Shown: positions 43,077 through 62,198 of the stretch, piece by piece
How positions within the stretch are numbered: the stretch's first letter is position 1
Layout: each line of letters opens with the position of its first letter
Source of the DNA: Klenkia terrae
Lineage (GTDB): Bacteria > Actinomycetota > Actinomycetes > Mycobacteriales > Geodermatophilaceae
Assembly: GCF_900491935.1 (NCBI RefSeq)
Contig: NZ_UEXK01000004.1
Location: forward strand, 2,312,899 to 2,375,096
DNA length: 62,198 nt
Direction of reading: 5' to 3'
Position numbers and translations under genes: made by a program
Notes under the pieces: model-generated
Told to the model about the DNA's origin: nothing
Database searches by the model: none
What the model saw: only the letters and a program-made list of their open reading frames with translations

Positions 43077-44036
43077 ATGCTCGCTGCCACGGTGCTGCGC
43101 AGTGCTGACCTGGACGAGACCCGGGACGTGGTGGCCGCCGCGTTCTGCCCGCACACGCTCGAGCTGCCCGACCGCTCGGCCGCGCTGTCGGCCCGGTGGC
43201 GGGCGCACCAGGTCGAGGACATCGGCGTCACGGTGCTCGACTACGGCGCGCCCGTGCGGATCACCACCCGCGGCGGCTGCGACGCGTTCCTGGTCGAGAT
43301 CCCGCTCGGCGGCCGGTCCACCATCACCCAGGGCGCCGACACCGTGGTCGCCGACCGCACCACCGGCGCGATCCTGTCGCTGGCCGAGCCGATCAGCACG
43401 GTCCGCTCGGCCGGCAGCCCGCAGCTCATCGTCCGGCTCGAGCGCGCCGCCCTCGACGACCAGCTGCGCACGCTGACCGGCGCCGAGGTGCACCGCCCGC
43501 TGCGCTTCACCGCGGCCCTGGACCTCACCTCGCCCGAGGGCCGGTCGTGGCACCGGCTGGTCGACCTGCTGCGCACCGAGGCCGAGCAGGACGGCGCCCT
43601 GGTGCACTCGCCGGTCGCCCGGGCCCAGCTGCGCAGCCTGCTGCTCACCCAGCTGCTGTGCGGCCAGCCCAACAACTACAGCGACGTGCTGCGGCAGGGG
43701 TCGGGCACCCCGGTGCCCCGGCTGCTGCAGCGGGCCGTCGACCTGATCCGGGACCACGCCGCCGAGGCGCTCACCGTCGAGGACGTCGCCCAGGCCACCG
43801 GCATGAGCGTGCGGGCGCTGCAGCAGGGCTTCCGCCGCTACGTCGGCTGCACGCCCACCGAGTACCTGCGCGACGTCCGGCTGGACCGGGTGCACGCCGC
43901 GCTGCAGGCCGGTGACCCCGGCAGCCTGACGGTCACCGACGCGGCCTTCCGGTGGGGGTTCACCCACCTGGGCCGGTTCGCCGGGGACTACCGCCGGCGC
44001 TTCGCCGAGCCCCCCTCGGCCACGCTCCGCCGCTGA
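43077..44036 (+). CDS. AraC-family regulator (AraC_binding_2 type), paralogue 2
   Basis: The 319-residue protein has the sensor with FCPHTLELPDRSAALSARW and DYGAPVRITTRGGCDAFLVEIPLGGRSTI. The DNA-binding part is LTVEDVAQATGMSVRALQQGFRRYVGCTPTEYLRDVRLDRVHAAL, followed by WGFTHLGRFAGDYRRRF. It has the same design as the 39861, 44055 and 58613 proteins but is divergent in sequence. It lies between the NCS1 permease and another AraC gene (convergent). Its own promoter is at 43007-43034. The target is unknown. Confidence 0.9.
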   Translation: MLAATVLRSADLDETRDVVAAAFCPHTLELPDRSAALSARWRAHQVEDIGVTVLDYGAPVRITTRGGCDAFLVEIPLGGRSTITQGADTVVADRTTGAILSLAEPISTVRSAGSPQLIVRLERAALDDQLRTLTGAEVHRPLRFTAALDLTSPEGRSWHRLVDLLRTEAEQDGALVHSPVARAQLRSLLLTQLLCGQPNNYSDVLRQGSGTPVPRLLQRAVDLIRDHAAEALTVEDVAQATGMSVRALQQGFRRYVGCTPTEYLRDVRLDRVHAALQAGDPGSLTVTDAAFRWGFTHLGRFAGDYRRRFAEPPSATLRR

Positions 44037-44054: not shown

Positions 44055-44999
44055 TCAGCCGGCCAGGGTCTGGGAGGGCAGCTCGCGGTAGGTCTCGCGG
44101 TAGACCTGGGAGAACCGGCCCAGGTGGAAGAAGCCCCAGCGGGCCGCGACGTCGGTGACCGACGTGGTGCCGGGGTCGGCGGCCTGCAGGTCGCGGCGGG
44201 CCCGGGTCAGCCGGACCAGGCGCAGCTGCTCCAGCGGCGTGCTGCCGAGCTCGCGCTGGAAGGCCTCCTGCAGGGAGCGGGCGGAGACGCCGGCGGTGCC
44301 GGCCAGGTCGGCCAGCCGCCAGGCCCGCCCGGGCTCCGCCTCGATGGCGGCCAGCACCCGGCGCACCGCCCGGGAGCCGACCGGTGCCGGCACCGCGTCG
44401 GTCGTGCTGTTGGGCTGGGCGGCCAGCAGCGCGGAGATCAGCGTCTGCTCGAACTGGGTGGCCACCAGCGGCGACCGCAGCAGCGGGCCGCCGGCGCCCA
44501 GGTCGTCGACCGCCAGGTGCACCAGGCGCAGCCACGACCGCAGCGGTGCCGCGGTCAGGTCGACCAGCGGGTCGAACACGACCGGACCGCCCGCGGCCGC
44601 CTCGACGGCGGACCGGCGCAGGTAGACCAGCAGCTGCTCGCAGCCGGCCTCCCAGGTCATGTCGACGTGCTCGGTGGGGGAGCCCAGCGAGGCCCGCGTG
44701 GTGTCCGACGGGACGACGCGGTCGCCGACCCGCACCCGCGCGCGACCGGCCAGCGGGACCTGGACCAGGAAGAAGTCCTCGAACCGCCCGGGCACGATGC
44801 GCACCTCGTCGCCGTAGCGCAGGTAGTCCAGCGTGACGTCCTCACCGAGGGCGGCCGCGTTGTGCACCATGTCCAGCCGCCCGTCGCGGCGGGTCAGCCC
44901 GAGGTGGTGGGGGCAGAACCGCTGCGCGACCTCGCTGCGCGCCTCGTCCAGCTCCGTCGTGACGACCAGCGGGTGACGGGCGAGCAGTGCGGTGGCCAT
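44055..44999 (-). CDS. AraC-family regulator (AraC_binding_2 type), paralogue 3
   Basis: The 314-residue protein starts at ATG 44999. The sensor region is FCPHHLGLTRRDGRLDMVHNAAALGEDVTLDYLRYGDEVRI, and the HTH part is AWRLADLAGTAGVSARSLQEAFQRELGSTPLEQLRLVRLTRARRDLQ with WGFFHLGRFSQVYRETYRELPSQTL. It lies upstream on the same side as the Rid-family gene and the aryl-CoA cluster; regulation of this cluster alongside PaaX is plausible. It converges on paralogue 2. Confidence 0.9.
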   Translation of the reverse strand: MATALLARHPLVVTTELDEARSEVAQRFCPHHLGLTRRDGRLDMVHNAAALGEDVTLDYLRYGDEVRIVPGRFEDFFLVQVPLAGRARVRVGDRVVPSDTTRASLGSPTEHVDMTWEAGCEQLLVYLRRSAVEAAAGGPVVFDPLVDLTAAPLRSWLRLVHLAVDDLGAGGPLLRSPLVATQFEQTLISALLAAQPNSTTDAVPAPVGSRAVRRVLAAIEAEPGRAWRLADLAGTAGVSARSLQEAFQRELGSTPLEQLRLVRLTRARRDLQAADPGTTSVTDVAARWGFFHLGRFSQVYRETYRELPSQTLAG

Positions 45000-45091: not shown

Positions 45092-45511
45092 TCAGGGCCG
45101 GACGAGCCGCTCGTCGGGGATGACCGCGGTGCCCACGATCTCGATCAGCGCGTCGGTCTGCCACAGGCCCGTGGTGCCGATCCCGGCCATGGCCGGGTAG
45201 ACCGGGCCGGCCAGCTCGCGCCAGACCTCGCCGATCTCCTTGCCGTGCGCCTGGTAGTCGGGGATGTCGGTCAGGAAGATCGTGATGCTGACCAGGTCGC
45301 CCGGCTCGCCGCCCGCGGCGCGCAGCGTGGTGAGCACGTTGCCGAAGGCCTGCCGGAACTGCGCCACGATCCCCCCCGGGACGATCCGCATGTCTGCGTC
45401 GAGGGCGGTCTGCCCACCCAGGTACAGCGTGTTGCCGCTGAGCGTGCCGTGCGAGTAGCCGCGCGGCGTGGGCATTGACGACGGGTTGACGGCCTGCGGC
45501 TCGAGCGACAT
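45092..45511 (-). CDS. Rid-family (YjgF) protein
   Basis: The 139-residue protein has the Rid trimer fold (GYSHGTLSGNTLYLGGQTALDADMRIV, QFRQAFGNVLTTLRAAGGEPGDLVSITIFLTD). RidA enamine/imine deaminases carry an Arg in the PARTT region; here the equivalent reads PAMAG, so classical deaminase activity is doubtful and it probably belongs to a non-RidA subfamily. The ribosome site CAGGAG precedes ATG 45511. It is divergent from the FAH-cupin-aryl-CoA operon. A role on amino-substituted ring intermediates is attractive but unproven. Confidence 0.88.
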   Translation of the reverse strand: MSLEPQAVNPSSMPTPRGYSHGTLSGNTLYLGGQTALDADMRIVPGGIVAQFRQAFGNVLTTLRAAGGEPGDLVSITIFLTDIPDYQAHGKEIGEVWRELAGPVYPAMAGIGTTGLWQTDALIEIVGTAVIPDERLVRP

Positions 45512-45561
45512 GACGGGCTCCTGGTGGTGGGGGCGGTCCGGACGCAGCCACTCTGTCATCG

Positions 45562-45584
45562 TATTGACAACGACGCAACGATCG
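45562..45584. promoter_or_regulatory. Shared promoter/operator element, copy 1 (FAH operon)
   Basis: TATTGACA-N4-CGCAACGATCG, matching 20 of 23 positions with copy 2 at 51459-51481 at identical spacing. TTGACA is a consensus -35 hexamer (45564-45569), with a possible -10 CAGAAT at 45589-45594. Its location in front of two operons flanking a PaaX gene makes it a PaaX operator candidate. Confidence 0.7.
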
Positions 45585-45620
45585 TGCGCAGAATGCAACA
45601 CCGAACGAGAAGGGGGACCG

Positions 45621-46460
45621 ATGCGGCTCGCCACGGTCAGCACACCGACCGGCACGACGGCAGCGGTGCAGGACGGCGAGGACTGGCGCGCCCTGCCCGC
45701 GCGCGACCTCTCCGCGGCCTTCGCCGACGGCTCCTGGGCCGCGGCGCCCGGTGCCGTCGTCCCCGGGGCGGTGCCGGTGCTCCCGCTGCCGCGCCCGGGC
45801 AAGGTGGTCTGCTGCGGCCTGAACTACGGCGAGCACATCCGGGAGACCGGCCGGGAGCTGCCCGCCCACCCCACGCTGTTCGCCAAGTTCGCCGACACGC
45901 TCACCGGCCCGACCGACGACCTGCGGCTGGACGCCTCGGCGCAGTGGGACTGGGAGGCCGAGCTGGCCGTCGTCGTCGGCACCCCGCTGCACCGGGCCGA
46001 CCGCGCCGCCGCCCGCGCGGCCATCGGCGGCTGGACGGTCGCCAACGACCTGTCCGCCCGGGACTGGCAGCGCCGCACCCTGCAGTGGTTCCAGGGCAAG
46101 GCGTGGGACGCCACCACCCCGCTGGGCCCGGTCGTCGTCACCCCCGACGAGGTCGACCCCTTCGCCGGGCTGGCCGTCTCCTGCCGGATCGACGGCGTGG
46201 AGGTGCAGCGCGACAGCACGGCCACGCTGGTCTTCGACGCCGCGGACCTGCTGGCCTACGTCTCCACCTTCACCGTGCTGCGCCCCGGCGACCTGGTGCT
46301 CACCGGCACGCCCGGCGGCGTCGGCATGGCCCGCGATCCGCAGCGCTGGCTCGCCGACGGCGAGGTGCTCGAGACCGAGGTCGAGGGCATCGGCACCCTG
46401 CGCAACACCATCCGTCTCACCCAGGAGGAGTCATCGTGGACCCCAGCAACGACCGCCTGA
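45621..46460 (+). CDS. Fumarylacetoacetate hydrolase-family protein
   Basis: The 279-residue protein has the FAH fold with GKVVCCGLNYGEHIRETG, the metal-binding AQWDWEAELAVVVG (Glu/Asp set), NDLSARDWQ and LVLTGTPGGVGMARDP. Family members hydrolyse C-C bonds of beta-diketo acids such as fumarylpyruvate or maleylpyruvate, or decarboxylate them. As first gene of the aryl-CoA operon it would act on a ring-opened product. ATG 45621 follows AAGGGGG. Its end overlaps the cupin gene by 25 bp. Confidence 0.9.
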   Translation: MRLATVSTPTGTTAAVQDGEDWRALPARDLSAAFADGSWAAAPGAVVPGAVPVLPLPRPGKVVCCGLNYGEHIRETGRELPAHPTLFAKFADTLTGPTDDLRLDASAQWDWEAELAVVVGTPLHRADRAAARAAIGGWTVANDLSARDWQRRTLQWFQGKAWDATTPLGPVVVTPDEVDPFAGLAVSCRIDGVEVQRDSTATLVFDAADLLAYVSTFTVLRPGDLVLTGTPGGVGMARDPQRWLADGEVLETEVEGIGTLRNTIRLTQEESSWTPATTA

Positions 46461-46897
46461 TCACCCCGGCCACGGGCCTCGTCGTCCCGGTCGTCACCCG
46501 CTCGGGCCAGGAGCCCGACCGGACGGCGCAGAGCGAGGGCGCGACCCGCATCTCCGGGGTCAGCCCGCAGCACACCCCGGCCACGAAGATCTGGTTCGGC
46601 CAGGTGCACAACCTGGCCGGCTACCGCTCGGTGCCGCACCACCACGGCGAGGCCGAGACCGGCGGGTTCGTGCTCAGCGGCCGGGCCCGGATCTACTTCG
46701 GCGAGCGGTTCGACGACTACATCGACATGTCCGAGGGCGACTGGGTCTTCGTCCCGCCGCACATGCCGCACGTCGAGTGCAACCTGGACCGGAACAACCC
46801 GCTGACCTGGATGACCACCCGGACGCCGGACAACATCGTGGTCAACCTGCCCCAGGTGGACGACGCCGACCTGCGCGACTGGGCGGACCGGCCGTGA
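46436..46897 (+). CDS. Single-domain cupin protein of the aryl-CoA cluster
   Basis: The 153-residue protein starts at GTG 46436 behind AGGAGG, within the FAH gene. The cupin motif 1 is SVPHHHGEAETGGFVLSGRARIYFGE (His cluster and Glu for metal) and motif 2 is GDWVFVPPHMPHVECN. It is too short for a bicupin gentisate dioxygenase, but a metal-dependent ring-modifying or isomerising role is possible. No reaction is assigned. It is translationally coupled to its neighbours on both sides. Confidence 0.83.
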   Translation: MDPSNDRLITPATGLVVPVVTRSGQEPDRTAQSEGATRISGVSPQHTPATKIWFGQVHNLAGYRSVPHHHGEAETGGFVLSGRARIYFGERFDDYIDMSEGDWVFVPPHMPHVECNLDRNNPLTWMTTRTPDNIVVNLPQVDDADLRDWADRP

Positions 46898-47811
46898 CCG
46901 CCACCTCGGAGGTCTTCACCGCCGCGGTCACGCTGCAGGAGGCCCCGGCGGAGGTGCACGACGTGGCCTTCACCGCGACCACCCAGCCCTGCCCGTGGCC
47001 CAAGGCCTACGGCGGGGACATGGTCGCCCAGGCGCTGGTCGCCGCGCTGCGCACCGTCACCGACGGCAAGACCGTGCACTCGATGCACTCCTACTTCCTG
47101 CGGCCGGTCGACATCGGCGGGCAGGTCCGCTACGAGGTCGAGCTGCTGCGCGACGGCCGCGGCTACGCCACCCGCCAGGTCCGCGGCTTCCAGAACGGCA
47201 AGCCGGTCTACACCTGCCTGGTCAGCTTCGCCGCGGGCGAGGCCGGCGGCAGCTGGGCGCCCGCCGCCCCGACCGGCGTCCCCGCGCCCGAGGACCTGCC
47301 GTCGGCGGCCGACGTGCTGGCCGGACGCGAGGGCGGCACCAGCACCGAGGCCTCCCGCGCCTACTGGGCCGGCGGCCGCAGCTTCGACATGCGGCACGTG
47401 CCCGGCCCGCTCTACCTCGACGTCGCCGGCGGCACCGGCCCGCAGCAGGCGGTCTGGGTGCGCCCGTTCGACGCGCTGCGCCCGGTGCCCGGCGTGGACG
47501 ACGCCCAGCGGGACGCCGCCGCCCTGGCCTACGTCTGCGACTACACGATCCTCGAGCCCGCCCTGCGGGTGCTCGGGCACGCGTGGGCCGACGAGGGCCT
47601 GGTCACCGCCAGCCTCGACCACGCCATGTGGTTCCACCGGCCGGTCGTCATGGGCGACTGGCTGCTCTACGCCCAGGAGGTGGTCTCGGTCGAGGACGGC
47701 CGCGGCACCGGGGTGGGCCGGTTCTACGACACCGACGGGGTCCACCTGGCCACCGTCGTCCAGGAAGGTCTGATCCGGGCGGCCGTGCCGCAGACGGGGG
47801 AGCAGTCGTGA
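46894..47811 (+). CDS. Acyl-CoA thioesterase II (TesB family)
   Basis: The 305-residue protein has two hotdog domains: YGGDMVAQALVAALRTVTDGKTVHSMHSYFLRPVDIGGQVRYEVELLRDGRGYATRQVRGFQNGK in the first, and SLDHAMWFHRPVVMGDWLLY in the second, with the conserved active-site Asp/Gln area. It hydrolyses acyl-CoA thioesters. It overlaps the cupin and flavoprotein genes by 4 bp each. A second thioesterase (50180) is in the same operon, so distinct CoA intermediates are probably released. Confidence 0.92.
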   Translation: MTATSEVFTAAVTLQEAPAEVHDVAFTATTQPCPWPKAYGGDMVAQALVAALRTVTDGKTVHSMHSYFLRPVDIGGQVRYEVELLRDGRGYATRQVRGFQNGKPVYTCLVSFAAGEAGGSWAPAAPTGVPAPEDLPSAADVLAGREGGTSTEASRAYWAGGRSFDMRHVPGPLYLDVAGGTGPQQAVWVRPFDALRPVPGVDDAQRDAAALAYVCDYTILEPALRVLGHAWADEGLVTASLDHAMWFHRPVVMGDWLLYAQEVVSVEDGRGTGVGRFYDTDGVHLATVVQEGLIRAAVPQTGEQS

Positions 47812-50183
47812 AGGTCGCGATCGTCGGCGGCGGGCCCGGTGGCCTGTACCTGGCCGCGCTGCTGCGCCAGCTGGACAGCAGCCACGAGATCACCGTCTGG
47901 GAGCGCAACGCCCCCGAAGACACGTTCGGCTTCGGCGTCGTGTTCTCCGACGAGACGCTGGGCAGCATCGAGGGCGCCGACGAGGTCGTGCACCAGCGGA
48001 TGGAGTCCCGCTTCGCCCGGTGGACCGACATCGACGTCGAGGTCGACGGGCAGTCCTTCACCGTGGGCGGCCAGGGCTTCGCCGCGATGAGCCGCAAGGA
48101 GCTGCTGTCGATCCTGCAGGAGCGGGTCGCCGAGCTCGGCGTCACCGTGCACTACCGCGCGCTGGCCCCCGACGTCGAGGAGCTGCGCGCCACCCACGAC
48201 CTGGTGGTGGCCTGCGACGGGCTGAACTCCCAGATCCGGACGGCGCACGCCCAGGCGTTCGGCCCCACGCTGGACCGCCGGCACAACAAGTACATCTGGC
48301 TGGGCACCGACCTGGTCTTCGAGGCCTTCCAGTTCATCGTCAAGCACACGGAGTGGGGGACGATGCAGATCCACGGCTACCCGTTCTCCGACACCGGCTC
48401 GACCTTCATCGTCGAGATGCACGACGACGTCTGGGAGCGCGCGGGCTTCGGCGCGACCGAGGGCCAGGAGTTCCCGCCCGGGGTGAGCGACACCTACGCC
48501 GTCGAGCGGATCCGGGAGATCTTCGCCGACGAGCTGGCCGGGCACGAGGTGCTCACCAACAACTCGAAGTGGCTGAACTTCCAGACCGTCCGCAACGAGT
48601 GCTGGCACGAGGGCAACCTGGTGCTGCTGGGCGACGCGGCGCACACCGCGCACTTCTCCATCGGCTCGGGCACCAAGCTCGCCATGGAGGACGCGCTGGC
48701 GCTGGCCGCCTGCCTGCACGAGCACCCCACGATCGAGCAGGCTCTGGCCGCCTACCAGGACGAGCGCAAGCCGGTGGTCGAGTCCACCCAGCGCGCGGCC
48801 CAGGCCTCGCTGGAGTGGTTCGAGCGGATCGGCATGTACGCGGGCCAGGAGCCGACCGAGTTCGTGTTCAACCTGCTGACCCGGTCCCGCCGGATCACCT
48901 TCGAGAACCTGCGCGACCGGGACGCCGTGTTCGCCGCCCAGGTCGAGGCCGCCTTCGCCGCCCGGCACGGGGACGGCGAGCCCGCCCCGGCCATGTTCCA
49001 GCCGGTCCGGATCGGCGGGCTGGAGCTGGCCAACCGGGTCGTGCTGGCGCCCATGGACATGTACGTGGCCGACGAGGGCGTGCCCGGTGAGTTCCACCTG
49101 GTGCACCTGGGCAGCAAGGCCCTGGGCGGCGCCGGCCTGGTGATGACCGAGATGACCTGCGTGTCCCCGGAGGCCCGGATCACCCTGGGCTGCCCCGGGC
49201 TGTGGACCGACGAGCAGCGCGACGCCTGGGCCCGGGTGACCCGGTTCGTGCACGAGCGGTCGCCGGCCAAGATCGGCGTCCAGATCGGGCACTCGGGCCG
49301 CAAGGGCTCCACCAAGCTCATGTGGGAGGGCATCGACCAGCCCCTGGAGAGCGGCAACTGGGAGGTCGTCGGGCCCAGCGCGCTGCCCTACGGCCCCGGC
49401 TGCCACGTGCCCCGCGAGGCCACCCGCGCCGACCTGGACACCGCGGTCGCCGACTTCGCCGCCGCGGCCGGCCGGGCGGTCGACGCCGGGTTCGACCTGG
49501 TCGAGGTGCACGCCGCGCACGGCTACCTGCTGTCGTCGTTCCTGTCCCCGGCCGCCAACCAGCGCACCGACTCCTACGGCGGGAGCCTGGCGAACCGGCT
49601 GCGGTTCCCGCTGGAGGTCTTCGACGCCGTCCGCGAGGTCGTCGCGGGCCGGGTGCCGGTGACCGTGCGCATCTCCGCGCACGACTGGCTGCCCGACGGC
49701 AACACCGACGACGACGCCGTGGAGATCGCCCGGGCCTTCGTGGCGCACGGCGCGGCCGCCGTCCACGTGTCCTCCGGCCAGGTGTCCAAGGAGGAGAAGC
49801 CGGCGTTCGGGCGGTCCTACCAGACCCCCTTCGCCGACCGGATCCGGCAGGAGGTGGCGGCGCCGGCCGGCGCGATGGTGATCGCGGTCGGGGCGATCTC
49901 CTCGCACGACGACGTCAACTCGATCCTGCTCGCCGGGCGCGCGGACCTCTGCGCGCTGGGCCGCACCCACCTCTACGACGGGCAGTGGACGCTGCACGCC
50001 GCCGCCGAGCAGGGCTACGCCGGTCCCGGCGCGGTCTGGCCGACGCCCTGGGCCGGCGGCAGCCGCAAGCCCCCGACGTCGCGCACGGACAAGGTGCCGC
50101 CGCGGTTGTCCCTGCTGCGCGACGGCGTCGTGGAGCCCGAGCACGTCCGGTGGCGGCCGCGCACGCCGGTCGCGGCGGGGTGA
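47808..50183 (+). CDS. Bifunctional aryl-CoA monooxygenase / Old-Yellow-Enzyme reductase fusion
   Basis: The 791 residues fall into two parts. Residues 1-390 form a flavin monooxygenase (VAIVGGGPGGLYLAALL; GDAAHTAHFSIGSGTKLAMEDA near residue 275), like salicylyl-CoA 5-hydroxylase. Residues 395-780 form an OYE-type FMN domain (FQPVRIGGLELANRVVLAPM; GVQIGHSGRKGS; EVHAAHGYLLSSFLSP; YGGSLANRLR). The same fusion is known for 2-aminobenzoyl-CoA monooxygenase/reductase, which hydroxylates and then reduces the ring. Substrate (anthraniloyl- or salicylyl-CoA) is not resolvable from sequence. Starts overlap on both sides. Confidence 0.92.
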   Translation: MKVAIVGGGPGGLYLAALLRQLDSSHEITVWERNAPEDTFGFGVVFSDETLGSIEGADEVVHQRMESRFARWTDIDVEVDGQSFTVGGQGFAAMSRKELLSILQERVAELGVTVHYRALAPDVEELRATHDLVVACDGLNSQIRTAHAQAFGPTLDRRHNKYIWLGTDLVFEAFQFIVKHTEWGTMQIHGYPFSDTGSTFIVEMHDDVWERAGFGATEGQEFPPGVSDTYAVERIREIFADELAGHEVLTNNSKWLNFQTVRNECWHEGNLVLLGDAAHTAHFSIGSGTKLAMEDALALAACLHEHPTIEQALAAYQDERKPVVESTQRAAQASLEWFERIGMYAGQEPTEFVFNLLTRSRRITFENLRDRDAVFAAQVEAAFAARHGDGEPAPAMFQPVRIGGLELANRVVLAPMDMYVADEGVPGEFHLVHLGSKALGGAGLVMTEMTCVSPEARITLGCPGLWTDEQRDAWARVTRFVHERSPAKIGVQIGHSGRKGSTKLMWEGIDQPLESGNWEVVGPSALPYGPGCHVPREATRADLDTAVADFAAAAGRAVDAGFDLVEVHAAHGYLLSSFLSPAANQRTDSYGGSLANRLRFPLEVFDAVREVVAGRVPVTVRISAHDWLPDGNTDDDAVEIARAFVAHGAAAVHVSSGQVSKEEKPAFGRSYQTPFADRIRQEVAAPAGAMVIAVGAISSHDDVNSILLAGRADLCALGRTHLYDGQWTLHAAAEQGYAGPGAVWPTPWAGGSRKPPTSRTDKVPPRLSLLRDGVVEPEHVRWRPRTPVAAG

Positions 50184-50578
50184 GCGGGCCCAGCGGCACC
50201 TGTCGCCGCCGGGTGGAGTGGGTGGACACCGACGCGTCGGGGATCTACCACAACACCGCGGTGGCCCGGTTCGCCGAGGCGGCCGAGGCGGAGCTCATGC
50301 GGGGGGTCGGGCTGGACTTCGCCCCGACCGCCCCGCGGGTCCGGTACGAGGTCGAGTTCGTGTCCCCGCTGCGCTTCGGCGACGAGGCGGTGACCACCGT
50401 GCAGGTGGCCGAGATCGGCCGGACCTCGATGACCTTCGACTTCGAGGTGCGCCGTGGGGACGACGTGCTGGCCGCCCGCGGCCGGTACGTCGTGGTGCAC
50501 GTGGACGGGTTCGAGGGCGGCGGGCCCAGCCCGTGGCCGGACGCCTGGCGCGCGGCGCTGGGGGCCGACGGGTCGTGA
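50180..50578 (+). CDS. 4HBT-type acyl-CoA thioesterase
   Basis: The 132-residue hotdog protein has the active-site motif VEWVDTDASGIYHNTAVARFAEAAEAELM, where the Asp and following loop match 4-hydroxybenzoyl-CoA thioesterases. Strands FVSPLRFGDEAVTTVQVAEIGRTSMTFDFEV follow. It is coupled by GTGA overlaps to the flavoprotein and PaaX genes. It likely releases CoA from a ring-hydroxylated aryl-CoA. Confidence 0.9.
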   Translation: MSGPSGTCRRRVEWVDTDASGIYHNTAVARFAEAAEAELMRGVGLDFAPTAPRVRYEVEFVSPLRFGDEAVTTVQVAEIGRTSMTFDFEVRRGDDVLAARGRYVVVHVDGFEGGGPSPWPDAWRAALGADGS

Positions 50579-51444
50579 CCGGGTCGGCTGGCACGATGCT
50601 GCTGGTGAGCCCGGAGGTGGAGGAGCGACGGGACGGCGGGGGGCGTGCCTCCCGCACCGTCGTCGTGACGTTCCTCGGTGCCGTGGTCCGGCGGATGGGC
50701 GGCTGGCTGCCCATCGGCGGCAGCATCGACCTGCTGGCCGCCCTCGACCTGGACGGGCCGACCGTGCGCACCGCGGTCTTCCGGCTGAAGAAGCGCGGCT
50801 GGCTGGACCCGGAGAGCCGGGGCGGGGTGCGCGGCTACGCGCTGACCCCGCTGGCCGCCGACTCCTTCGCCCGCGGCGACGAGATCATCTGGCACGCCCG
50901 CCAGCCGGCGGCGCTGACCGACGGCTGGTGCATCGTGAACTTCTCGGTGCCCGAGTCGATGCGCAGCCGCCGCCAGCAGCTGCGGTCGCACCTGTCCTCC
51001 CTCGGCTTCGGGAACGTGGGGACGGCGACCTGGATCGCCCCGGCCCGGATGCTGCCGGCGGCGCAGGCGGCCATCACCGAGCTCGACCTGGTCGGCCACA
51101 GCGCGGTCTTCGTCGGCGACCACGTCGCCGGGCAGGACCTGGCCACGCTGATCCGGGAGAGCTGGGACCTGGCCGGCATCGACCAGCGGTACCGGGAGTT
51201 CGTCGCCGAGCACGCCGACACCCTCGCGGTGGTCGAGGGCGGCGTGGACCCGGCGACGGCGTTCGCCACCTATCTGCAGGTGGTCGACGCCTGGCGCCGG
51301 CTGCCCTACCGGGACCCGGGCCTGCCCCGCACCCTGCTGCCCGACGACTGGGCCGGCCCGCGGGCCGCCGCGGTGTTCGAGCAGCTGGTGCAGGCCCTCG
51401 AGGGCCGGGCGCTGGCGCACGCCGCGGGGCACTGGCCCGCCTGA
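50575..51444 (+). CDS. PaaX-family transcriptional repressor
   Basis: The 289-residue protein has the N-terminal winged helix of PaaX (GSIDLLAALDLDGPTVRTAVFRLKKRGWLDPESRGGVRGYALTPLAADSF) followed by the PaaX-like middle domain (DGWCIVNFSVPESMRSRRQQLRSHLSSLGFGNVGTATWIAPAR) and a C-terminal helical domain. PaaX senses phenylacetyl-CoA in the classical system; relatives respond to other aryl-CoA esters. It is the last gene of the aryl-CoA operon and probably represses that operon and the ligase by the element at 45562 and 51459. Confidence 0.93.
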   Translation: MTGSAGTMLLVSPEVEERRDGGGRASRTVVVTFLGAVVRRMGGWLPIGGSIDLLAALDLDGPTVRTAVFRLKKRGWLDPESRGGVRGYALTPLAADSFARGDEIIWHARQPAALTDGWCIVNFSVPESMRSRRQQLRSHLSSLGFGNVGTATWIAPARMLPAAQAAITELDLVGHSAVFVGDHVAGQDLATLIRESWDLAGIDQRYREFVAEHADTLAVVEGGVDPATAFATYLQVVDAWRRLPYRDPGLPRTLLPDDWAGPRAAAVFEQLVQALEGRALAHAAGHWPA

Positions 51445-51458
51445 ACCCGACCGGTGTG

Positions 51459-51481
51459 TATTGACACCTGCGCAACGATCG
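51459..51481. promoter_or_regulatory. Shared promoter/operator element, copy 2 (ligase operon)
   Basis: TATTGACA-N4-CGCAACGATCG, the partner of 45562-45584, located 15 bp after the PaaX stop and 45 bp before the ligase start. TTGACA (51461-51466) can serve as the -35 hexamer. Confidence 0.7.
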
Positions 51482-51525
51482 CGCTTGATGTGTCATGTCA
51501 CCCGGACCAGAGTTGAGGAGCGCCC

Positions 51526-53217
51526 GTGCAGCTCTCGCCGTCGGCCCACACCGACACCTTCGCCCGGGACCACCTCCCGCCGGCCGAGGACTGGCCGGTC
51601 CTCGAGTTCACCACCCCCGAGCTGCAGCACCCGGCCCGGCTGAACGCCGGGGCCGCCCTCGTCGACGAGGCCGTGGCCCGGTTCGGCCGGGACCGCCCGG
51701 CGCTGCGCACCCCGGACGGCGAGGTGTGGACCTACGGCGAGCTGCAGGACCGGGCCGATCAGGTCGCCCACGTGCTGGTCGACGACCTCGGCCTGGAGCC
51801 GGGCAACCGCGTGCTGCTGCGCGCACCGAACACGCCGTGGATGGTCGCGGCCTGGCTGGGCACGCTGAAGGCCGGCGGCGTCGCCACGGTGGTCTTCGCC
51901 GCGCTGCGGGCCGGTGAGCTGGCCCCGGTCGTCGAGCGGACCCGGCCCGCCCTCGCCCTGGTCGACCACCGCAGCGTCGCCGACGTCGAGGCCGTCCGGG
52001 ACTCCTCCGCCCCGGACCTGCGGGTGACCACGATCGGGGCCGGCACCGACACCGACCTGGTGGCCCGGGCGGCGACCAAGCCGGCCGGGTTCACCGCCGT
52101 CGACACCGCCGCCGACGACGTCGCGCTGCTGTGCCCCACCTCGGGCAGCACCGGCGTCCCCAAGATCACCATGCACTTCCACCGGGACGTGCTGAGCATC
52201 GACGCCACCTTCGGCCGGCACGTGCTGCAGCTGGGGCCCGACGACCTGGTGGCCTGCACTGCGCCGTTCGCGTTCACCTTCGGGCTGGGCATGCTGGTGG
52301 TCTTCCCGCTGCGCGCGGGCGCCTGCGCCCTGCTCACCGACGCGCTGGCCCCGCCCGCGCTGGCCGACCTGGTCGCCGAGCAGGGTGTCACCGTGCTGGC
52401 CACCGCGCCGACGGCCTACCGGCAGATCCTGGCCGCGGGCAAGGGATCGCAGCTGGCGGGCCTGCGGATGGCGGTCAGCGCCGGCGAGCACATCTCCGAC
52501 GACACCTGGGCCGCGCTGCACGACGACCTCGGCCTGCAGGTGGTCGACGGCATCGGCGGCACCGAGCTGCTGCACATCTTCATCTCCGCCGCCGGTGAGG
52601 ACGTCCGGCGCGGCACGACCGGCCGGCCCCTGCCCGGGTACCGCGCGGCGATCCTCGACCCGGACGGCGCTGAGCTGCCGGCCGGCGTCGAGGGCCGGCT
52701 CGCGGTGATCGGCCCGGTCGGCTGCCGGTACCTGGACGACGACCGGCAGCGCAGCTACGTGCAGGGCGGCTGGAACGTCACCGGCGACACCTTCCGGCGC
52801 GACGAGGACGGCTGGTTCACCTACTGCGCCCGCACCGACAACATGATCGTGTCCTCGGGCTACAACATCGGCGGGCCCGAGGTCGAGTTCGCCGTCGACG
52901 GGCACCCCGACGTGGTCGAGTCCGCGGTGGTCGGGCGCCCGGACCCCGACCGCGGCGCGGTGGTCTGCGCGTTCGTCGTCCTGCGCGCGGGCGTCCCGGC
53001 CAGCGAGGCGACGGCGCGGTCGATCCAGGACCACGTGAAGGCCGTGCTGGCCCCGTACAAGTACCCGCGCGACGTCCGGTTCGTCGACGCCCTGCCGCGC
53101 AACACCAGCGGCAAGCTGCAGCACTTCAAGCTGCGCGAGCAGCTCGCCGGGACCGCCCCGCGCTCCGCGGACGCCGGTCGCGCAGAGCGGATAGCCCCCG
53201 GTCCCGGGCCTTCCTAG
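51526..53217 (+). CDS. Aryl-CoA ligase (2-aminobenzoate/benzoate-CoA ligase-like)
   Basis: This 563-residue ANL-superfamily enzyme forms an aryl-CoA through an aryl-AMP. The AMP-binding P-loop is LLCPTSGSTGVPKITMHFHRDV (about residue 204), the core motif is DGIGGTELLHIFISA, the hinge region is YCARTDNMIVSSGYNIGGPEVE and the catalytic Lys is in RNTSGKLQH (Lys530). The substrate pocket is closest in style to 2-aminobenzoate and benzoate ligases. GTG 51526 follows GAGGAG. The last 15 codons overlap AraC-type boxes, and the stop TAG begins the -10 of the next operon. Confidence 0.92.
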   Translation: MQLSPSAHTDTFARDHLPPAEDWPVLEFTTPELQHPARLNAGAALVDEAVARFGRDRPALRTPDGEVWTYGELQDRADQVAHVLVDDLGLEPGNRVLLRAPNTPWMVAAWLGTLKAGGVATVVFAALRAGELAPVVERTRPALALVDHRSVADVEAVRDSSAPDLRVTTIGAGTDTDLVARAATKPAGFTAVDTAADDVALLCPTSGSTGVPKITMHFHRDVLSIDATFGRHVLQLGPDDLVACTAPFAFTFGLGMLVVFPLRAGACALLTDALAPPALADLVAEQGVTVLATAPTAYRQILAAGKGSQLAGLRMAVSAGEHISDDTWAALHDDLGLQVVDGIGGTELLHIFISAAGEDVRRGTTGRPLPGYRAAILDPDGAELPAGVEGRLAVIGPVGCRYLDDDRQRSYVQGGWNVTGDTFRRDEDGWFTYCARTDNMIVSSGYNIGGPEVEFAVDGHPDVVESAVVGRPDPDRGAVVCAFVVLRAGVPASEATARSIQDHVKAVLAPYKYPRDVRFVDALPRNTSGKLQHFKLREQLAGTAPRSADAGRAERIAPGPGPS

Positions 53218-53272: not shown

Positions 53273-54058
53273 ATGACCGACCTGACCGGTCGCACCGCCG
53301 TCGTCACCGGCGGTGCCACCCTGCTCGCCCACGGGGTCGTCGAGGCCCTCGCCCGGGCCGGCGCCCGCGTGGTGGTCGCCGACGTCGACGAGGTCGGCGG
53401 CGCCGCGGCCGAGGCGCTGGGCACCGACGTCGTCTTCGTCCGCACCGACGTCACCGACGACGACTCGCTGGCCGCCCTGGTGCAGACCACCGTCGAGCGG
53501 TTCGGCGGCATCGACGTGGTGGTCAACCTGGCCGCGGTCTACCTCGACGAGGGCTTCGCCACCTCCCGGCAGGACTGGCTGCGGGCGCTGGACGTGAACG
53601 TGGTGAGCATGGTCGAGGTGGTGCGGCACGCGCACCCGCACCTGGTCGCCAGCGAGCACGCCGCGGTCGTCAACTTCACCTCGATCTCCTCGAAGGTCGC
53701 CCAGACCGGCCGCTGGGTCTACCCGGCGTCCAAGGCGGCGATCGCCCAGCTCACCCGGTCGATGGCGCTGGACCTGGCCCCCGACGGCATCCGGGTCAAC
53801 TCCATCAGCCCCGGCTGGACCTGGTCGAAGATCATGGACGACCTCTCCGGCGGCGACCGCGCGAAGACCGACGCCGTCGCGGCCCCGTTCCACCTGACCG
53901 GCCGGGTCGGGGACGGCGCCGAGATCGGCGCCGTCGTCGCCTTCCTGGTCTCCGACGCCGCCTCCGTCGTCACCGGGGCCGACTGGGCCGCCGACGGCGG
54001 CTACTCCGCGCTCGGCCCCGAGCAGACCGTCCCCGCCATCCCGCAGCTCGCAGAGTGA
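53273..54058 (+). CDS. Short-chain dehydrogenase/reductase
   Basis: The 261-residue classical SDR has the cofactor motif VTGGATLLAHGVVEALARAG (a TGxxxLxxG variant), VNLAAVYLDEG (NNAG equivalent) and the catalytic Ser plus YPASK. The C-terminal GADWAADGGYSALGPEQ is also typical. The start ATG 53273 is supported by AGGAGAGGAG. It heads a three-gene operon with two flavoenzymes. It could oxidise or reduce a cyclohexenone-type CoA intermediate from the aryl-CoA pathway; that is inference. Confidence 0.92.
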   Translation: MTDLTGRTAVVTGGATLLAHGVVEALARAGARVVVADVDEVGGAAAEALGTDVVFVRTDVTDDDSLAALVQTTVERFGGIDVVVNLAAVYLDEGFATSRQDWLRALDVNVVSMVEVVRHAHPHLVASEHAAVVNFTSISSKVAQTGRWVYPASKAAIAQLTRSMALDLAPDGIRVNSISPGWTWSKIMDDLSGGDRAKTDAVAAPFHLTGRVGDGAEIGAVVAFLVSDAASVVTGADWAADGGYSALGPEQTVPAIPQLAE

Positions 54059-54069
54059 GGTCCTCCACC

Positions 54070-55542
54070 ATGAAGATCGGCATCGTCGGGGCCGGGTTCG
54101 CCGGCCTGTCCTCCGCCAAGGTCCTCCGCCAGCTCGGCCACGAGGTGGTGGTCTGGGAGAAGGCGCCCGACCTGGGCGGGGTGTGGAGCGGGACCCGCCG
54201 CTACCCCGGGCTCAAGACCCAGAACGACAAGGGCACCTACGCCCTGTCGGACCTCACGATGCCCGTGGACTACCCGGAGTGGCCCTCGGGCGCCCAGGTG
54301 CAGGCCTACCTGCAGACCTACGCGGAGAAGTTCGACCTGGTCCGGCACGTGCAGCTGGGCACCGAGGTGGTGCAGGCCCGCCCGTCCGACGGCGGCGGGT
54401 GGGACGTCGAGACCGCCGAGAGCACCACGCACGTGGACCACCTGGTGCTGGCCAGCGGGATCTTCTCCCGGCCCTTCGTGCCGCCGATCGAGAACCTCGA
54501 CCTGTTCGAGAAGCTGGGCGGCGAGGTGCTGGCGGCCAGCGAGTGGCACAGCCACGAGCAGGTCCGCGGCAAGGACGTCGTCGTGCTCGGCTACGGCAAG
54601 AGCGCCTGCGACATCACCGTGGAGATCGCCTCGGTGGCGGCCTCGACCACCGTCGTGGCCCGCGAGCTGCTGTGGAAGATGCCGCGCAAGGTGGCCAACG
54701 CGGTCAACTACAAGTTCTTCATGCTCACGCGGATGGGCGAGGGCCTGTTCCGCTACCGGTCCACCACCGGTCCGGAGAAGCTGCTGCACGCCAGGAACTC
54801 GGCGATGGCCAACTCGATGCTGGGCAGCGTGGAGAAGGTGACCACCGGCCAGCTCAAGCTCACCGACCTCGGCCTGGTGCCGCTGGGCCAGTTCTCCGAC
54901 ATCGCCCGGTCGACGGTCTCGCTGGCCACCGAGGGCTTCTTCGAGGGCGTCGCCGAGGGCCGGATCGCCGTCAAGCGCGACACCGTCGTCGCCCGGTTCG
55001 TGGAGCAGGACGGGAAGGCGCTCGCCGAGCTCTCCACCGGGGAGCTGGTGCCCGCCGACGTCGTCGTCGCCGCCACCGGCTGGACCCAGGACCTGCCCTT
55101 CCTGCCCGAGGACGTCGTCGACCGGCTCACCGACGACAAGGGGGACTTCCTGCTGCACCGGCAGATCCACCCGATCGACGTCGCCGACCTCAGCTTCGCC
55201 GGGTACAACTCGTCGTTCTTCTCCCCGTTGTCGGCGGAGGTCTCGGCGATCTGGATCGGCTCGCTGCTGGGCGGCAACCACGAGCTGCCCAGCCGGGACG
55301 AGATGCACCGGCAGCGGCGCGAGACCCTGGACTGGATGCGCGAGCGCACCCACGGCGCGCACGCCCGCGGCACCAACATCATCCCGTTCTCGGTGAAGAA
55401 CATCGACGAGGTGCTCTCCGACGTCGGCATCGGCGTCGGCCCGCTCACCCGGGCCAAGCAGTGGCTGCTGCCGATCGACCCGGGCGACTACGCGCACGTC
55501 ACGCCCACCCTGGCGAAGCGGCTGCAGGGGTCGCCGGCATGA
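54070..55542 (+). CDS. FAD/NADPH-dependent flavin-containing monooxygenase-like oxidoreductase
   Basis: The 490-residue protein has the FAD motif VGAGFAGLSSAKVLRQLGHEVVVWEKAPDLGGVW at the start and the NADPH motif VVLGYGKSACDITVEIA near residue 175. This is a group B monooxygenase layout (FMO/Baeyer-Villiger type), yet the fingerprint FxGxxxHxxxW is not clear; AASEWHSHEQ stands in that place. It could oxygenate a ketone or nitrogen. The start lies 11 bp after the SDR stop, and the end overlaps the next FAD gene by 4 bp. Confidence 0.88.
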   Translation: MKIGIVGAGFAGLSSAKVLRQLGHEVVVWEKAPDLGGVWSGTRRYPGLKTQNDKGTYALSDLTMPVDYPEWPSGAQVQAYLQTYAEKFDLVRHVQLGTEVVQARPSDGGGWDVETAESTTHVDHLVLASGIFSRPFVPPIENLDLFEKLGGEVLAASEWHSHEQVRGKDVVVLGYGKSACDITVEIASVAASTTVVARELLWKMPRKVANAVNYKFFMLTRMGEGLFRYRSTTGPEKLLHARNSAMANSMLGSVEKVTTGQLKLTDLGLVPLGQFSDIARSTVSLATEGFFEGVAEGRIAVKRDTVVARFVEQDGKALAELSTGELVPADVVVAATGWTQDLPFLPEDVVDRLTDDKGDFLLHRQIHPIDVADLSFAGYNSSFFSPLSAEVSAIWIGSLLGGNHELPSRDEMHRQRRETLDWMRERTHGAHARGTNIIPFSVKNIDEVLSDVGIGVGPLTRAKQWLLPIDPGDYAHVTPTLAKRLQGSPA

Positions 55543-57164
55543 GCGACCGGTTCGACGCCGTCGTCGTCGGCGCGGGGATCAACGGCATGGTGGCCGCCGC
55601 CGAGCTGGCCGGCGCCGGCTGGCGGGTGGCGCTGGTGGACGAGCACGACCGGATCGGCGGCTTCATCGCGTCGGACGAGCTGACCCTGCCCGGGTACACC
55701 CACGACACGTTCAGCTCGTGGCACCCGCTGTTCATGGCCGGCGGCGCCTACGCCGCGCTCGGGGCGGACCTGCACCGGCACGGCCTGGTCTACCGGAACG
55801 CCGAGGGCCCGGTGACCGCCTCGGTGTCCGAGCGGGGTGCCGTCGTCGCCGACCGCGACCCCGCCGCCACCGCGGCCACGTTCGAGCACCCGGAGGACGC
55901 CGCGGCCTACGCCGCGATGCTCACCCAGCTCGAGCGCTGGTCCCCGCACGTGTTCGGCGCGCTGGGCTCCCGGCTGGGCGGCACCGACGCCGCCCGGCTG
56001 GGCCTGGGTGCGCTGCGCGGGCTGGGCCGGGCCGAGGTCGTCGAGCTGGTGCGGGTGGCCGGCCAGTCCGGCCGCGGCCTGGTGCGCGAGCGGTTCGCCG
56101 GCCACGAGGTCGACCAGCTGTGGGCGCCGTGGCTGCTGCACGCCGGGCTGGCCCCCGACCAGGCCACCGGCGGGCTGATGCTGCCGGTGATGGCCTTCAC
56201 CATGCACGCCGTCGGGCTGCCGGTCGTCGAGGGCGGTGCCGGCCGGTTCACCGAGGCCTTCGGCCGGCTGCTCGCCGAGCGCGGCGTCGAGGTCGTGCTG
56301 GGGGCGCCGGCCGAGCGGATCGAGGTGCAGGACGGGCTCGCCGTCGCCGTGCACGTCGGTGGCCGGCGGCTGTCGGCGACCAAGGCCGTGCTCGCCTCCA
56401 CGGCGACCGGCCGGCTGTACGGGGACCTGCTGCGGCCCGAGGACGTGGACGACGGCGGGCGGCAGGCCGTGGTCCGGCACCGTCCGGGCCGGGCCGCCGC
56501 CCAGCTGCACCTCGCCCTGGACCGGCCGCTGAGCTGGGCCGACAGCCGGCTGGACGCCGTCCCGCTGGTGCACGTGAGCAACGGGTCCGACAGCACCGGG
56601 GTGGCGTGCGCGCAGGCCGAGGCCGGGTTGCTGCCCGCCGAGCCCACGGTGGTGGTCGGCCAGCAGACGGTGCTGGACCCCACCCGCGCCCCCGCGGGCG
56701 GCGCGACGCTGTGGCTGCAGCTGCAGGAGCTGCCCTGGGCGCCGACCGGGGACGCGGCCGGCGAGATCGACACGACCGGTGGCTGGACCCCCGAGGTGGC
56801 CGACGCCTACGCCGACCGCGTGCTGGCCCGGGTGGAGCGGTACGCGCCTGGGCTGGGCGACCGGGTGGTGGGCCGGCACATCATCTCCCCGGCCGGGCTC
56901 AGCGCGGCCAACGCCAACGCCGTCCAGGGCGACCCGTACGGCGGGGCGGCCGAGCTGGACCAGTCGCTGCTGTGGCGGCCGGGCACCGGCACCGGGCACC
57001 GCACCGGGGTGGCCCGGCTGTTCCACATCGGCGCCTTCACCCACCCGGGCCCCGGCCTGGGCGGCGGCTCCGGCCACATCGTGGCGCAGGGCCTGCTCCG
57101 GCCCCCGGCTGCCCAGCGCCTGGCCGCAGCCGTGCGGTCGAAGCTGGCCGCCGTCCGCAGCTGA
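55539..57164 (+). CDS. FAD-dependent oxidoreductase (phytoene-desaturase-like)
   Basis: The 541-residue protein has VVVGAGINGMVAAAELAGAGWRVALVDEHDRIGGFIASDE at the N-terminus and the FAD-closing motif LFHIGAFTHPGPGLGGGSGHIVAQGL at the C-terminus, the pattern of CrtI/NAD(P)-binding Rossmann-like amine oxidases. No carotenoid genes are near, so a desaturation or dehydrogenation in the preceding catabolic pathway is more likely. Its start overlaps the FMO stop (ATGA). The operon ends at two large hairpins. Confidence 0.88.
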   Translation: MSDRFDAVVVGAGINGMVAAAELAGAGWRVALVDEHDRIGGFIASDELTLPGYTHDTFSSWHPLFMAGGAYAALGADLHRHGLVYRNAEGPVTASVSERGAVVADRDPAATAATFEHPEDAAAYAAMLTQLERWSPHVFGALGSRLGGTDAARLGLGALRGLGRAEVVELVRVAGQSGRGLVRERFAGHEVDQLWAPWLLHAGLAPDQATGGLMLPVMAFTMHAVGLPVVEGGAGRFTEAFGRLLAERGVEVVLGAPAERIEVQDGLAVAVHVGGRRLSATKAVLASTATGRLYGDLLRPEDVDDGGRQAVVRHRPGRAAAQLHLALDRPLSWADSRLDAVPLVHVSNGSDSTGVACAQAEAGLLPAEPTVVVGQQTVLDPTRAPAGGATLWLQLQELPWAPTGDAAGEIDTTGGWTPEVADAYADRVLARVERYAPGLGDRVVGRHIISPAGLSAANANAVQGDPYGGAAELDQSLLWRPGTGTGHRTGVARLFHIGAFTHPGPGLGGGSGHIVAQGLLRPPAAQRLAAAVRSKLAAVRS

Positions 57165-61649: not shown

Positions 61650-62198
61650 GTGACCGTCATCGACGCACTCCTGGCCTCCCTGGACTCCGGCGAGGTCGAG
61701 ATCATCGACCTCACCGCCCCGCTCTCCCCGGAGACGCCGGTGCTGCAGCTCCCGGCGCCGTTCGCCAACACGATCCCGCTGTCGCTGGAGAAGGTCAGCG
61801 ACTTCGACGACGACGGCCCGTTCTGGGGCTGGAACAACATCCACACCGGCGAGCACACCGGCACCCACGTCGACGCCCCCGCGCACTGGGCCACCGGCCG
61901 GGACGGCGCCACCGTCGACGTCATCCCGCCGCGCCGGCTGGTCGGCCCGGCCGTCGTCCTGGACTTCACCGAGCAGGCCTCGGCCGACCCGGACTTCCTC
62001 CTCGAGCCCGAGCACCTGGACGCCTACGTCGCCGAGCACGGCCCGCTGCCCGAGGGCGCCTGGCTGCTGTTCCGCACCGGCTGGAGCCGGTTCGGCCACG
62101 ACGCCGCCGCCTTCGCCAACGCCGACGATGCCGGCCCGCACACCCCCGGCGTCTCCGCCGCGGGCGCGCAGTGGCTGGCCGCCTCGCCGATCACCGGC
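61650..62198 (+). CDS. Cyclase-family metal-dependent hydrolase (kynurenine formamidase-like), C-terminus beyond window
   Basis: The 183 visible residues start at GTG 61650; GGAAGG lies 12 bases upstream. The metal-binding motif HTGTHVDAPAHW (His69, His73, Asp75, His79) is that of the cyclase/KynB family, which hydrolyses N-formylkynurenine to kynurenine or opens cyclic amides and isatin. The conserved EVEIIDLTAPLSPETPVL lies at the front, and PEGAWLLFRTGWSRFG near residue 140. It shares promoter boxes with the SDR-FMO operon, suggesting a common regulon. The reading frame runs off the right edge. Confidence 0.88.
   Translation, partial: MTVIDALLASLDSGEVEIIDLTAPLSPETPVLQLPAPFANTIPLSLEKVSDFDDDGPFWGWNNIHTGEHTGTHVDAPAHWATGRDGATVDVIPPRRLVGPAVVLDFTEQASADPDFLLEPEHLDAYVAEHGPLPEGAWLLFRTGWSRFGHDAAAFANADDAGPHTPGVSAAGAQWLAASPITG

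Follow-up and report, generated by a model that had tools for sequence, protein, structure and literature searches.

Aerobic degradation of anthranilate proceeds, according to a 2015 review, via catechol, gentisate, or 3-hydroxyanthranilate, or via 2-aminobenzoyl-coenzyme A (2-aminobenzoyl-CoA) followed by beta-oxidation (PMC4539516). In addition, plasmid pAL1 of Arthrobacter sp. Rue61a carries, ~9 kb from its quinaldine-to-anthranilate genes, a cluster that consists of a PaaX gene, a Rid-family gene, a divergent series encoding an FAH-family hydrolase, a cupin, a TesB-type thioesterase, a CoA ligase, and a monooxygenase/Old Yellow Enzyme (OYE) fusion enzyme, and another PaaX gene. A homologous cluster (45092-53217) was found in a stretch of 62,198 nucleotides (hereafter the window; 74.2% GC) of the 4.8-Mb genome of Klenkia terrae (contig NZ_UEXK01000004.1, positions 2,312,899 to 2,375,096). 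Its gene order is Rid, divergent from FAH-cupin-TesB-monooxygenase/OYE-4HBT-PaaX, followed by the CoA ligase gene. This cluster may encode a lower pathway of anthranilate degradation that leads via a CoA ester and dearomatisation to ring opening by the cupin, a reading to which a probability of roughly 40% is assigned.

The consecutive genes from FAH to PaaX overlap by 25, 4, 4, 4, and 4 bases, the last overlap being that with the PaaX start at position 50575, which is an arrangement typical of a single transcript. A preliminary description of this region had listed these genes and had proposed an aerobic aryl-CoA cluster under control of PaaX. All genes named therein were confirmed in position and in family, the Rid gene being divergent. 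Similarly, the prediction of a PaaX-type-regulated aerobic aryl-CoA catabolic operon is supported. The ligase gene had been placed correctly beyond the coupled genes, but it is set apart by a gap of 81 bases after PaaX, which contains a separate copy of the motif. The claim of an undescribed pathway does not stand as worded, since the homologous pAL1 cluster is in print and its ligase makes anthraniloyl-CoA (PMC3534580). As a whole, the gene observation is confirmed and the interpretation partly supported.

Substrate of the cluster

The substrate of the cluster is very probably anthranilate, a break-down product of tryptophan. Its role as entry substrate is indicated by the ligase of the pAL1 homologue, which, when expressed in Escherichia coli, displayed anthranilate-CoA ligase activity and produced anthraniloyl-CoA (PMC3534580). 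The window ligase is 59% identical to this enzyme (ARUE_113p00220, gene assigned by position), and its best PDB match is 4wv3, named 'Anthranilate-CoA ligase' (E 4.9e-69); its score for TIGR02262 (321 bits) is under the cut-off (375.25). Furthermore, a copy of the cluster on a Rhodococcus plasmid adjoins genes for tryptophan 2,3-dioxygenase and a class-V pyridoxal phosphate (PLP) enzyme, and the copy of Arthrobacter ERGS1:01 is located near kynU. The genome of K. terrae itself contains above-cut-off matches for tryptophan dioxygenase and kynureninase, elsewhere than in the cluster.

The fusion enzyme bears the NCBIfam name 'bifunctional salicylyl-CoA 5-hydroxylase/oxidoreductase', which is in line with a route from salicylyl-CoA via gentisyl-CoA to gentisate, a gentisate dioxygenase, and the FAH-family protein as fumarylpyruvate hydrolase. 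This route is very improbable. Gentisate dioxygenase (TIGR02272) had no match in the genome at E 0.001, the control search giving matches in four of 14 genomes and above the cut-off in none, and there would be no amino group for Rid to remove. Anthranilate is favoured over salicylate because of this missing match and because anthranilate-forming genes occur near three relatives. In addition, Rue61a was reported to lack growth on salicylate, gentisate, and 5-hydroxyanthranilate, the last of which it converts (PMC3534580). The salicylate route was rejected as principal explanation on the basis of these growth data and the missing gentisate dioxygenase match. Anthranilate 1,2-dioxygenase gave no match in a profile search of the genome either, the controls for this family never scoring above the cut-off. 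The preliminary description had held that known 2-aminobenzoyl-CoA pathways or the salicylyl-CoA route explain part of the gene set. This holds insofar as neither the beta-oxidation form of the former nor the gentisate form of the latter accounts for the later steps; salicylate itself is disfavoured.

Alternatively, another aryl acid, such as a substituted anthranilate, might be supplied by neighbouring accessory modules and undergo the same chemistry, given that the window ligase is just 59% identical to that of pAL1 and that accessory genes vary by host. This is quite improbable, as the core genes are kept beside very different upper modules, which is expected for one common funnel substrate.

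Candidate route and its alternatives

The route envisaged for anthranilate comprises six steps. First, the ligase would make anthraniloyl-CoA, as shown experimentally for the pAL1 orthologue. Secondly, the fusion enzyme would hydroxylate C5 and reduce the ring, yielding 2-amino-5-oxocyclohex-1-ene-1-carbonyl-CoA, as in the literature on this enzyme family. Thirdly, Rid would hydrolyse the enamine at the level of the CoA ester, with release of ammonia and formation of 2,5-dioxocyclohexanecarbonyl-CoA. Fourthly, TesB (or the 4HBT-type thioesterase) would free the acid, whose enol carries a carboxylate and an adjacent hydroxyl group and is thus salicylate-like. Fifthly, the cupin, acting as an Fe(II) dioxygenase, would cleave the C1-C2 bond of this non-aromatic enol to give succinylpyruvate (2,4-dioxoheptanedioate). 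Lastly, the FAH-family protein, acting as an acylpyruvate hydrolase, would form succinate and pyruvate, a maleylpyruvate isomerase not being required. All proposed steps balance in a formula check. Anthranilate-grown cells of Rue61a contained anthraniloyl-CoA as well as CoA esters of C7H7NO3 and C7H8O4 (PMC3534580), and the latter formula is that of the product of the third step (as CoA ester). The enol of the freed acid resembles salicylate and enolised beta-diketones, the substrates of gentisate-type cupins and of Dke1. Nonetheless, the precise sequence in which the cupin dioxygenase would cleave the enol of 2,5-dioxocyclohexane-1-carboxylate, reached via CoA esters and Rid, to succinylpyruvate, and FAH would convert the latter into succinate and pyruvate, is tentative, with the odds against it. 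No explanation of the role of the cupin, TesB, or FAH in such clusters was found in what was examined of the open-licence literature of PubMed Central, and the word 'cupin' is absent from the main text of PMC3534580.

The first steps appear to be common to two branches of the fusion enzyme. In a tree of 46 fusion enzymes, 24 actinobacterial proteins, all cupin-linked, formed a clade (support 0.987). A second clade (support 0.948) contained 18 proteins whose genomes, all belonging to the family searched, lacked a cupin match. The tree omitted L001-L006 (L numbers denote fetched loci), as their genomes were already represented by the window or by longer loci, duplicates of L062 and L063 (L008 and L013), and fusion-enzyme matches of at most 700 residues (L024-L028, L065, and L066). 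Three cupin-free sister loci (L061-L063; 20 kb each) kept ligase and Rid, and contained no cupin, TesB, or FAH gene. Enoyl-CoA hydratase genes were located near the clusters of L061 and L063, a short-chain dehydrogenase/reductase (SDR) gene in L063, and genes for a MaoC-type dehydratase and a branched-chain transporter in L061. Conversely, family profile scans of the ten cluster proteins of the window gave no match to enoyl-CoA hydratase or acyl-CoA dehydrogenase families. Apparently, both branches share their early genes and differ in their endings, one being beta-oxidation-like and the other consisting of thioesterase, cupin, and FAH.

H568, H571, and Y573 of the OYE half, which we take to be its catalytic residues, were kept in 28 of 28 cupin-linked fusion enzymes, so that the ring is probably reduced in the cupin branch too. 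As Rid is common to cupin-bearing and cupin-free clusters, its substrate is probably located upstream of the branch point, and Rid likely acts on the product of the second step. The Arg position of archetypal RidA, presumably R105, which would bind the substrate carboxylate, is occupied by Met in 25 and by Thr in one of 26 aligned copies of this Rid protein, and by Arg in the aligned structures 3k0t and 3r0p. Judged from the alignment, this loss fits a CoA thioester substrate instead of a free carboxylate.

Alternatively, the ring might be opened while still aromatic. The fusion enzyme would then form 5-hydroxyanthraniloyl-CoA, TesB would free 5-hydroxyanthranilate, the cupin would cleave it in the manner of gentisate, Rid would deaminate the opened enamine, and FAH would hydrolyse a maleylpyruvate-like acid. 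This would agree with the hydroxyanthraniloyl-CoA-like ester C7H7NO3 of Rue61a (PMC3534580), with the opening of 5-nitrosalicylate by a single-cupin enzyme (PMC10306065), with the Nocardia opaca route from anthranilate via 5-hydroxyanthranilate and gentisate (PMC4539516), and with the suitability of FAH for acylpyruvates. It is unlikely, however, as Rid also occurs in the cupin-free clusters examined, where a ring-opened enamine would not form, as the OYE half retains its active site, and as Rue61a failed to grow on 5-hydroxyanthranilate or gentisate, which uptake could explain (PMC3534580).

Concerning the cupin itself, its residues H68, H70, E74, and H112 are invariant in 18 of 18 aligned copies, and so are R38 and R129, which are candidates for an Arg that binds a carboxylate. 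The preliminary description considered this protein too short for a gentisate dioxygenase. Gentisate dioxygenase, 5-nitrosalicylate dioxygenase, and Dke1 were not among the matches listed for it in PDB sequence searches. Yet the size of the cupin does not exclude ring cleavage, since single-cupin cleaving enzymes exist: Dke1, a cupin of 153 residues, cleaves enolised beta-diketones with O2 (PMC4019311), and the single-cupin 5-nitrosalicylate 1,2-dioxygenase cleaves its ring (PMC10306065). It is fairly likely that the cupin is a ring-cleaving dioxygenase of some kind, and possible, at somewhat less than even odds, that it acts on a dearomatised ring. The H..E and D.E.E residues of the FAH-family protein, conserved in 20 of 20 aligned copies, were presumed to have their usual roles in the family; its nearest solved chain is 6j57 (E 2.4e-52), and the acylpyruvase FAHD1 is among its PDB relatives.

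A cupin without oxygenase function might instead isomerise or decarboxylate the freed beta-keto acid, FAH or another hydrolase opening the ring hydrolytically. The profile of the cupin is indeed closest to oxalate decarboxylase (best remote PDB match, E 6.6e-07), with sugar isomerases lower in the list, and the FAH-family chains in the PDB include named decarboxylases and isomerases. This course of reactions is rather improbable, as the cluster shows no gene for the 4-oxopimelate- or cyclohexanedione-type product that would be left, and as FAH-type hydrolases, which split acylpyruvates, typically act on 2,4-dioxo acids.

Distribution, linkage, and regulation

A sample of 298 genomes of the order contained 18 with a cupin match at E <= 1e-20. 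At an identity of at least 64% there were 11 (K. terrae included), all of which had the fusion enzyme nearby. In the family (112 genomes), the cupin was found in five genomes (E <= 1e-30), each of which carried a close fusion enzyme (77-79% identity, or that of the window), some fusion-enzyme match being present in 27 of the 112. In a sample of 396 genomes from the phylum, the cupin was retrieved at E <= 1e-40 in three, again including K. terrae. Of 35 loci compared, 29 contained a cupin of at least 60% identity, and the counts that follow apply to these fetched loci; the seven plasmid loci (L078-L084) were selected out of 146 plasmid records that matched the cupin, 30 of which were listed. 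The fusion enzyme was present in 27 of the 29, or in 24 of 26 without the three loci fetched because of it (L058-L060). TesB was found in all 25 actinobacterial loci having both cupin and fusion enzyme, and not in the alphaproteobacterial loci L081 and L083; FAH was found in 20 of the 29 cupin loci. The gene content, and mostly also the order, recurs in diverse actinobacteria and on plasmids, indicating that the grouping is not due to chance. The order does vary, the cupin of L052 being located at the opposite end on the other strand, and ligase and fusion enzyme of L079 forming a separate unit. On two alphaproteobacterial plasmids, the genes are rearranged and accompanied by a regulator of the MarR or MhqR type.

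Both cupin loci without the fusion enzyme still have FAH close to the cupin, immediately next to it in L077 and ~2.8 kb away in L080, as expected for consecutive steps. In L080, a plasmid stretch of Alloyangia pacifica, the cupin is accompanied by genes for an SDR, a TRAP transporter, and FAH, with no fusion monooxygenase in the stretch; cupin and FAH may have a part in a route beginning with a non-aromatic acid as well. Two more distant cupins lacked the linkage: no fusion enzyme was found in L064, the only locus checked with a cupin of ~40% identity, or in the stretch of L057 (50% identity). A search for further relatives of the cupin in viral contigs found none. Annotated records label the cupin at most as 'cupin domain-containing protein' or 'putative mannose-6-phosphate isomerase'. 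The cluster is scattered sparsely among soil bacteria and probably encodes a variant of the aerobic 2-aminobenzoyl-CoA pathway with a different ending.

Several points weigh against the route via a dearomatised ring. FAH was not found in the fetched stretch of nine of the 29 cupin loci, and it is not directly next to the cupin in L051, L075, and L080. The cupin-linked fusion enzymes do not form one clade, as those of L055, L079, L081, and L083 fall outside that of the 24, indicating gain or loss more than once. The reaction of the cupin is a proposal. Its residues H68, H70, E74, and H112 align with four positions of oxalate decarboxylase, presumably metal ligands, so that a role other than that of an oxygenase is possible; such a metal site is common to many non-oxygenase cupins. 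The AlphaFold model of the cupin (10 aligned sequences) was unusable, with a predicted local distance difference test (pLDDT) score of 39.8. The loss of Arg in Rid may mean that this protein has no deaminase activity. With respect to Rue61a, PMC3534580 describes a second, chromosomal ligase/monooxygenase pair, so that the CoA esters are not assignable to the pAL1 cluster; the C7H7NO3 ester is presumably hydroxyanthraniloyl-CoA, and the C7H8O4 ester may form non-enzymatically, given the hydrolytic deamination reported there. Finally, as the controls for both dioxygenase families never scored above the cut-off, the absence of gentisate and anthranilate dioxygenases depends on the models alone.

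The PaaX-like protein scored 152.5 bits for the NCBIfam PaaX equivalog, short of the cut-off of 264.55. The motif TTGACANNNNNGCAACGNTCG, at no more than one mismatch, occurs at exactly two sites in the genome (window positions 45564 and 51461), which precede FAH and the ligase gene; a reversed control pattern gave no match. For a tighter pattern with up to three mismatches, the chance expectation in the window was 0.03. A related motif was located between Rid and FAH or cupin in eight loci, without substitution in L074, with one in L047, two in L073, three in L071 and L072, and four in L048, L069, and L070. At four substitutions, chance matches arise as well (~20 further hits in the scanned loci), and the argument depends on this location of the motif together with the agreement with the PaaX orthologue. 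The motif was present in all eight relatives with such an orthologue (57-75% identity to the window PaaX) and was not found in that position in any of 19 other loci with cupin and fusion enzyme, where PaaX matches reached at most 42% or were lacking. From this co-variation in sequence (8/8 vs 0/19), we infer that the PaaX-like regulator binds the 21-base motif. It would repress from both sites until an aryl-CoA binds to it. The PaaX-type repressor of pAL1, MeqR2, is presumably responsive to anthraniloyl-CoA.

Neighbouring modules and comparison with described systems

Table 1. Features of the K. terrae cluster and its accessory module (positions in the window; aa, amino acids).
Feature	Position	Strand	Remarks
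Rid-family protein, 139 aa	45092..45511	-	PF01042; alternative longer start at 45559
Operator-like motif copy 1, TTGACAACGACGCAACGATCG	45564..45584	+	5' of FAH; includes TTGACA, a -35-like hexamer
FAH-family hydrolase, 279 aa	45621..46460	+	PF01557, 221.8 bits; proposed succinylpyruvate (2,4-dioxopimelate) hydrolase
Single-domain cupin, 153 aa	46436..46897	+	PF07883, 30.3 bits (cut-off 27.2); proposed ring-cleaving dioxygenase
TesB-type acyl-CoA thioesterase, 305 aa	46894..47811	+	PF02551, PF20789, PF13622; proposed free-acid release
FAD monooxygenase/Old Yellow Enzyme reductase fusion, 791 aa	47808..50183	+	NF006101 (PRK08255), 1165.2 bits (cut-off 1078); type of 2-aminobenzoyl-CoA monooxygenase/reductase
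4HBT-type (YbgC-like) thioesterase, 132 aa, accessory	50180..50578	+	PF03061; gene lacking in some relatives
PaaX-like regulator, presumed repressor	50575..51444	+	PF07848, PF20803, PF08223; gene caller prefers start 50596
Operator-like motif copy 2, TTGACACCTGCGCAACGATCG	51461..51481	+	5' of ligase
Aryl-CoA ligase (AMP-binding), 563 aa, probably anthranilate-CoA ligase	51526..53217	+	TIGR02262, benzoate-CoA ligase family
SDR oxidoreductase, accessory module	53273..54058	+	NF006121, 381.6 bits (cut-off 294)
FMO-like flavin monooxygenase, accessory module	54070..55542	+	PF00743

Downstream of the ligase gene, SDR, FMO-like, and CrtI-like genes are located at 53273-57164, and a metagenome-assembled genome of Nocardioides (L069) has the same three genes next to its cluster. 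Homologues of the SDR accompany the clusters of L047 (87%) and L069 (81-82%), in both cases with an FMO-like gene nearby. Upstream, the segment 35227-39617 contains genes for an XRE regulator, a bicupin-like protein, an OsmC-like protein, an amino-acid permease, and a class-V PLP enzyme, homologues of which (54-76%) immediately adjoin the Rid-FAH-cupin cluster of Flexivirga endophytica (L073). This segment may represent an upper module that feeds the pathway. The class-V PLP gene (38475-39617) was considered as a kynureninase gene, which is not claimed: its product shows 28-30% identity over ~250 residues to two kynurenine-linked enzymes and scored 61.9 bits against an NCBIfam cut-off of 246.4.

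Four AraC-type-looking regulators with similar N-termini are encoded at 39861-40823, 43077-44036, 44055-44999, and 58613-59551, the one at 44055 having homologues close to the clusters of L047, L050, and L069. At 61650-62198 and beyond (L067:1549-6308), a cyclase-family-like gene is followed by indolepyruvate ferredoxin oxidoreductase (IOR)-like alpha and beta genes. A Tsukamurella plasmid (L082) has a cyclase gene and an IOR alpha gene by the cluster, and cyclase relatives are near it in L050, L054, and L073. A single N at the right edge of the window (G000:C4:2375097) is flanked by ends sharing an exact 137-base overlap, apparently a join within the cyclase gene that was left unmerged in the assembly. 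Finally, a second cluster in genome G110 (L065:9196-15261) encodes a 500-aa protein resembling the monooxygenase half only (41-43%), together with a ligase (29%), an FAH homologue (54-61%), and PaaX-like genes, and is perhaps a related, separate pathway.

If the proposed route is correct, it represents a further ending for anthranilate degradation, in which CoA activation and dearomatisation are combined with the oxygenolytic cleavage of an alicyclic ring. Rid would thereby gain a defined catabolic role and the cupin family a substrate, and the automatic label 'salicylyl-CoA 5-hydroxylase' would be corrected for this group of enzymes. Each of the proposed steps predicts a named product.

Compared with described systems, the cluster presumably shares a CoA ligase and a flavoprotein of the salicylyl-CoA 5-hydroxylase type with the sdg genes of Streptomyces sp. 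WA46, which we take to encode a salicylyl-CoA/gentisate route. It differs in that the K. terrae genome has no gentisate 1,2-dioxygenase match, in that Rid is present, and in that the OYE residues are intact. With the 2-aminobenzoyl-CoA pathway of Azoarcus evansii it has in common a CoA ligase, a bifunctional monooxygenase/reductase, and, as proposed, a non-aromatic CoA product, but the latter is reported to be degraded further by beta-oxidation in that organism (PMC4539516), whereas the window cluster contains cupin, TesB, and FAH and no enoyl-CoA hydratase. Like Dke1, which is of equal length (153 residues) and has enolised beta-dicarbonyls as substrates, and 5-nitrosalicylate 1,2-dioxygenase, the window protein has one cupin domain (PMC4019311 and PMC10306065). 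In contrast, neither is among its PDB sequence matches, and it retains the motif Glu that is dispensable in Dke1 (PMC4019311). From the pAL1 cluster (ARUE_113p00220/00230 and neighbours), it differs in that PaaX is encoded inside the operon (34% identity to the best pAL1 match) with the ligase gene downstream of it, in that quinaldine genes are not adjacent, and in that the motif was not found in the pAL1 stretch. At the same time, both clusters have the same core genes and PaaX-type regulators, with six proteins being 55-71% identical.

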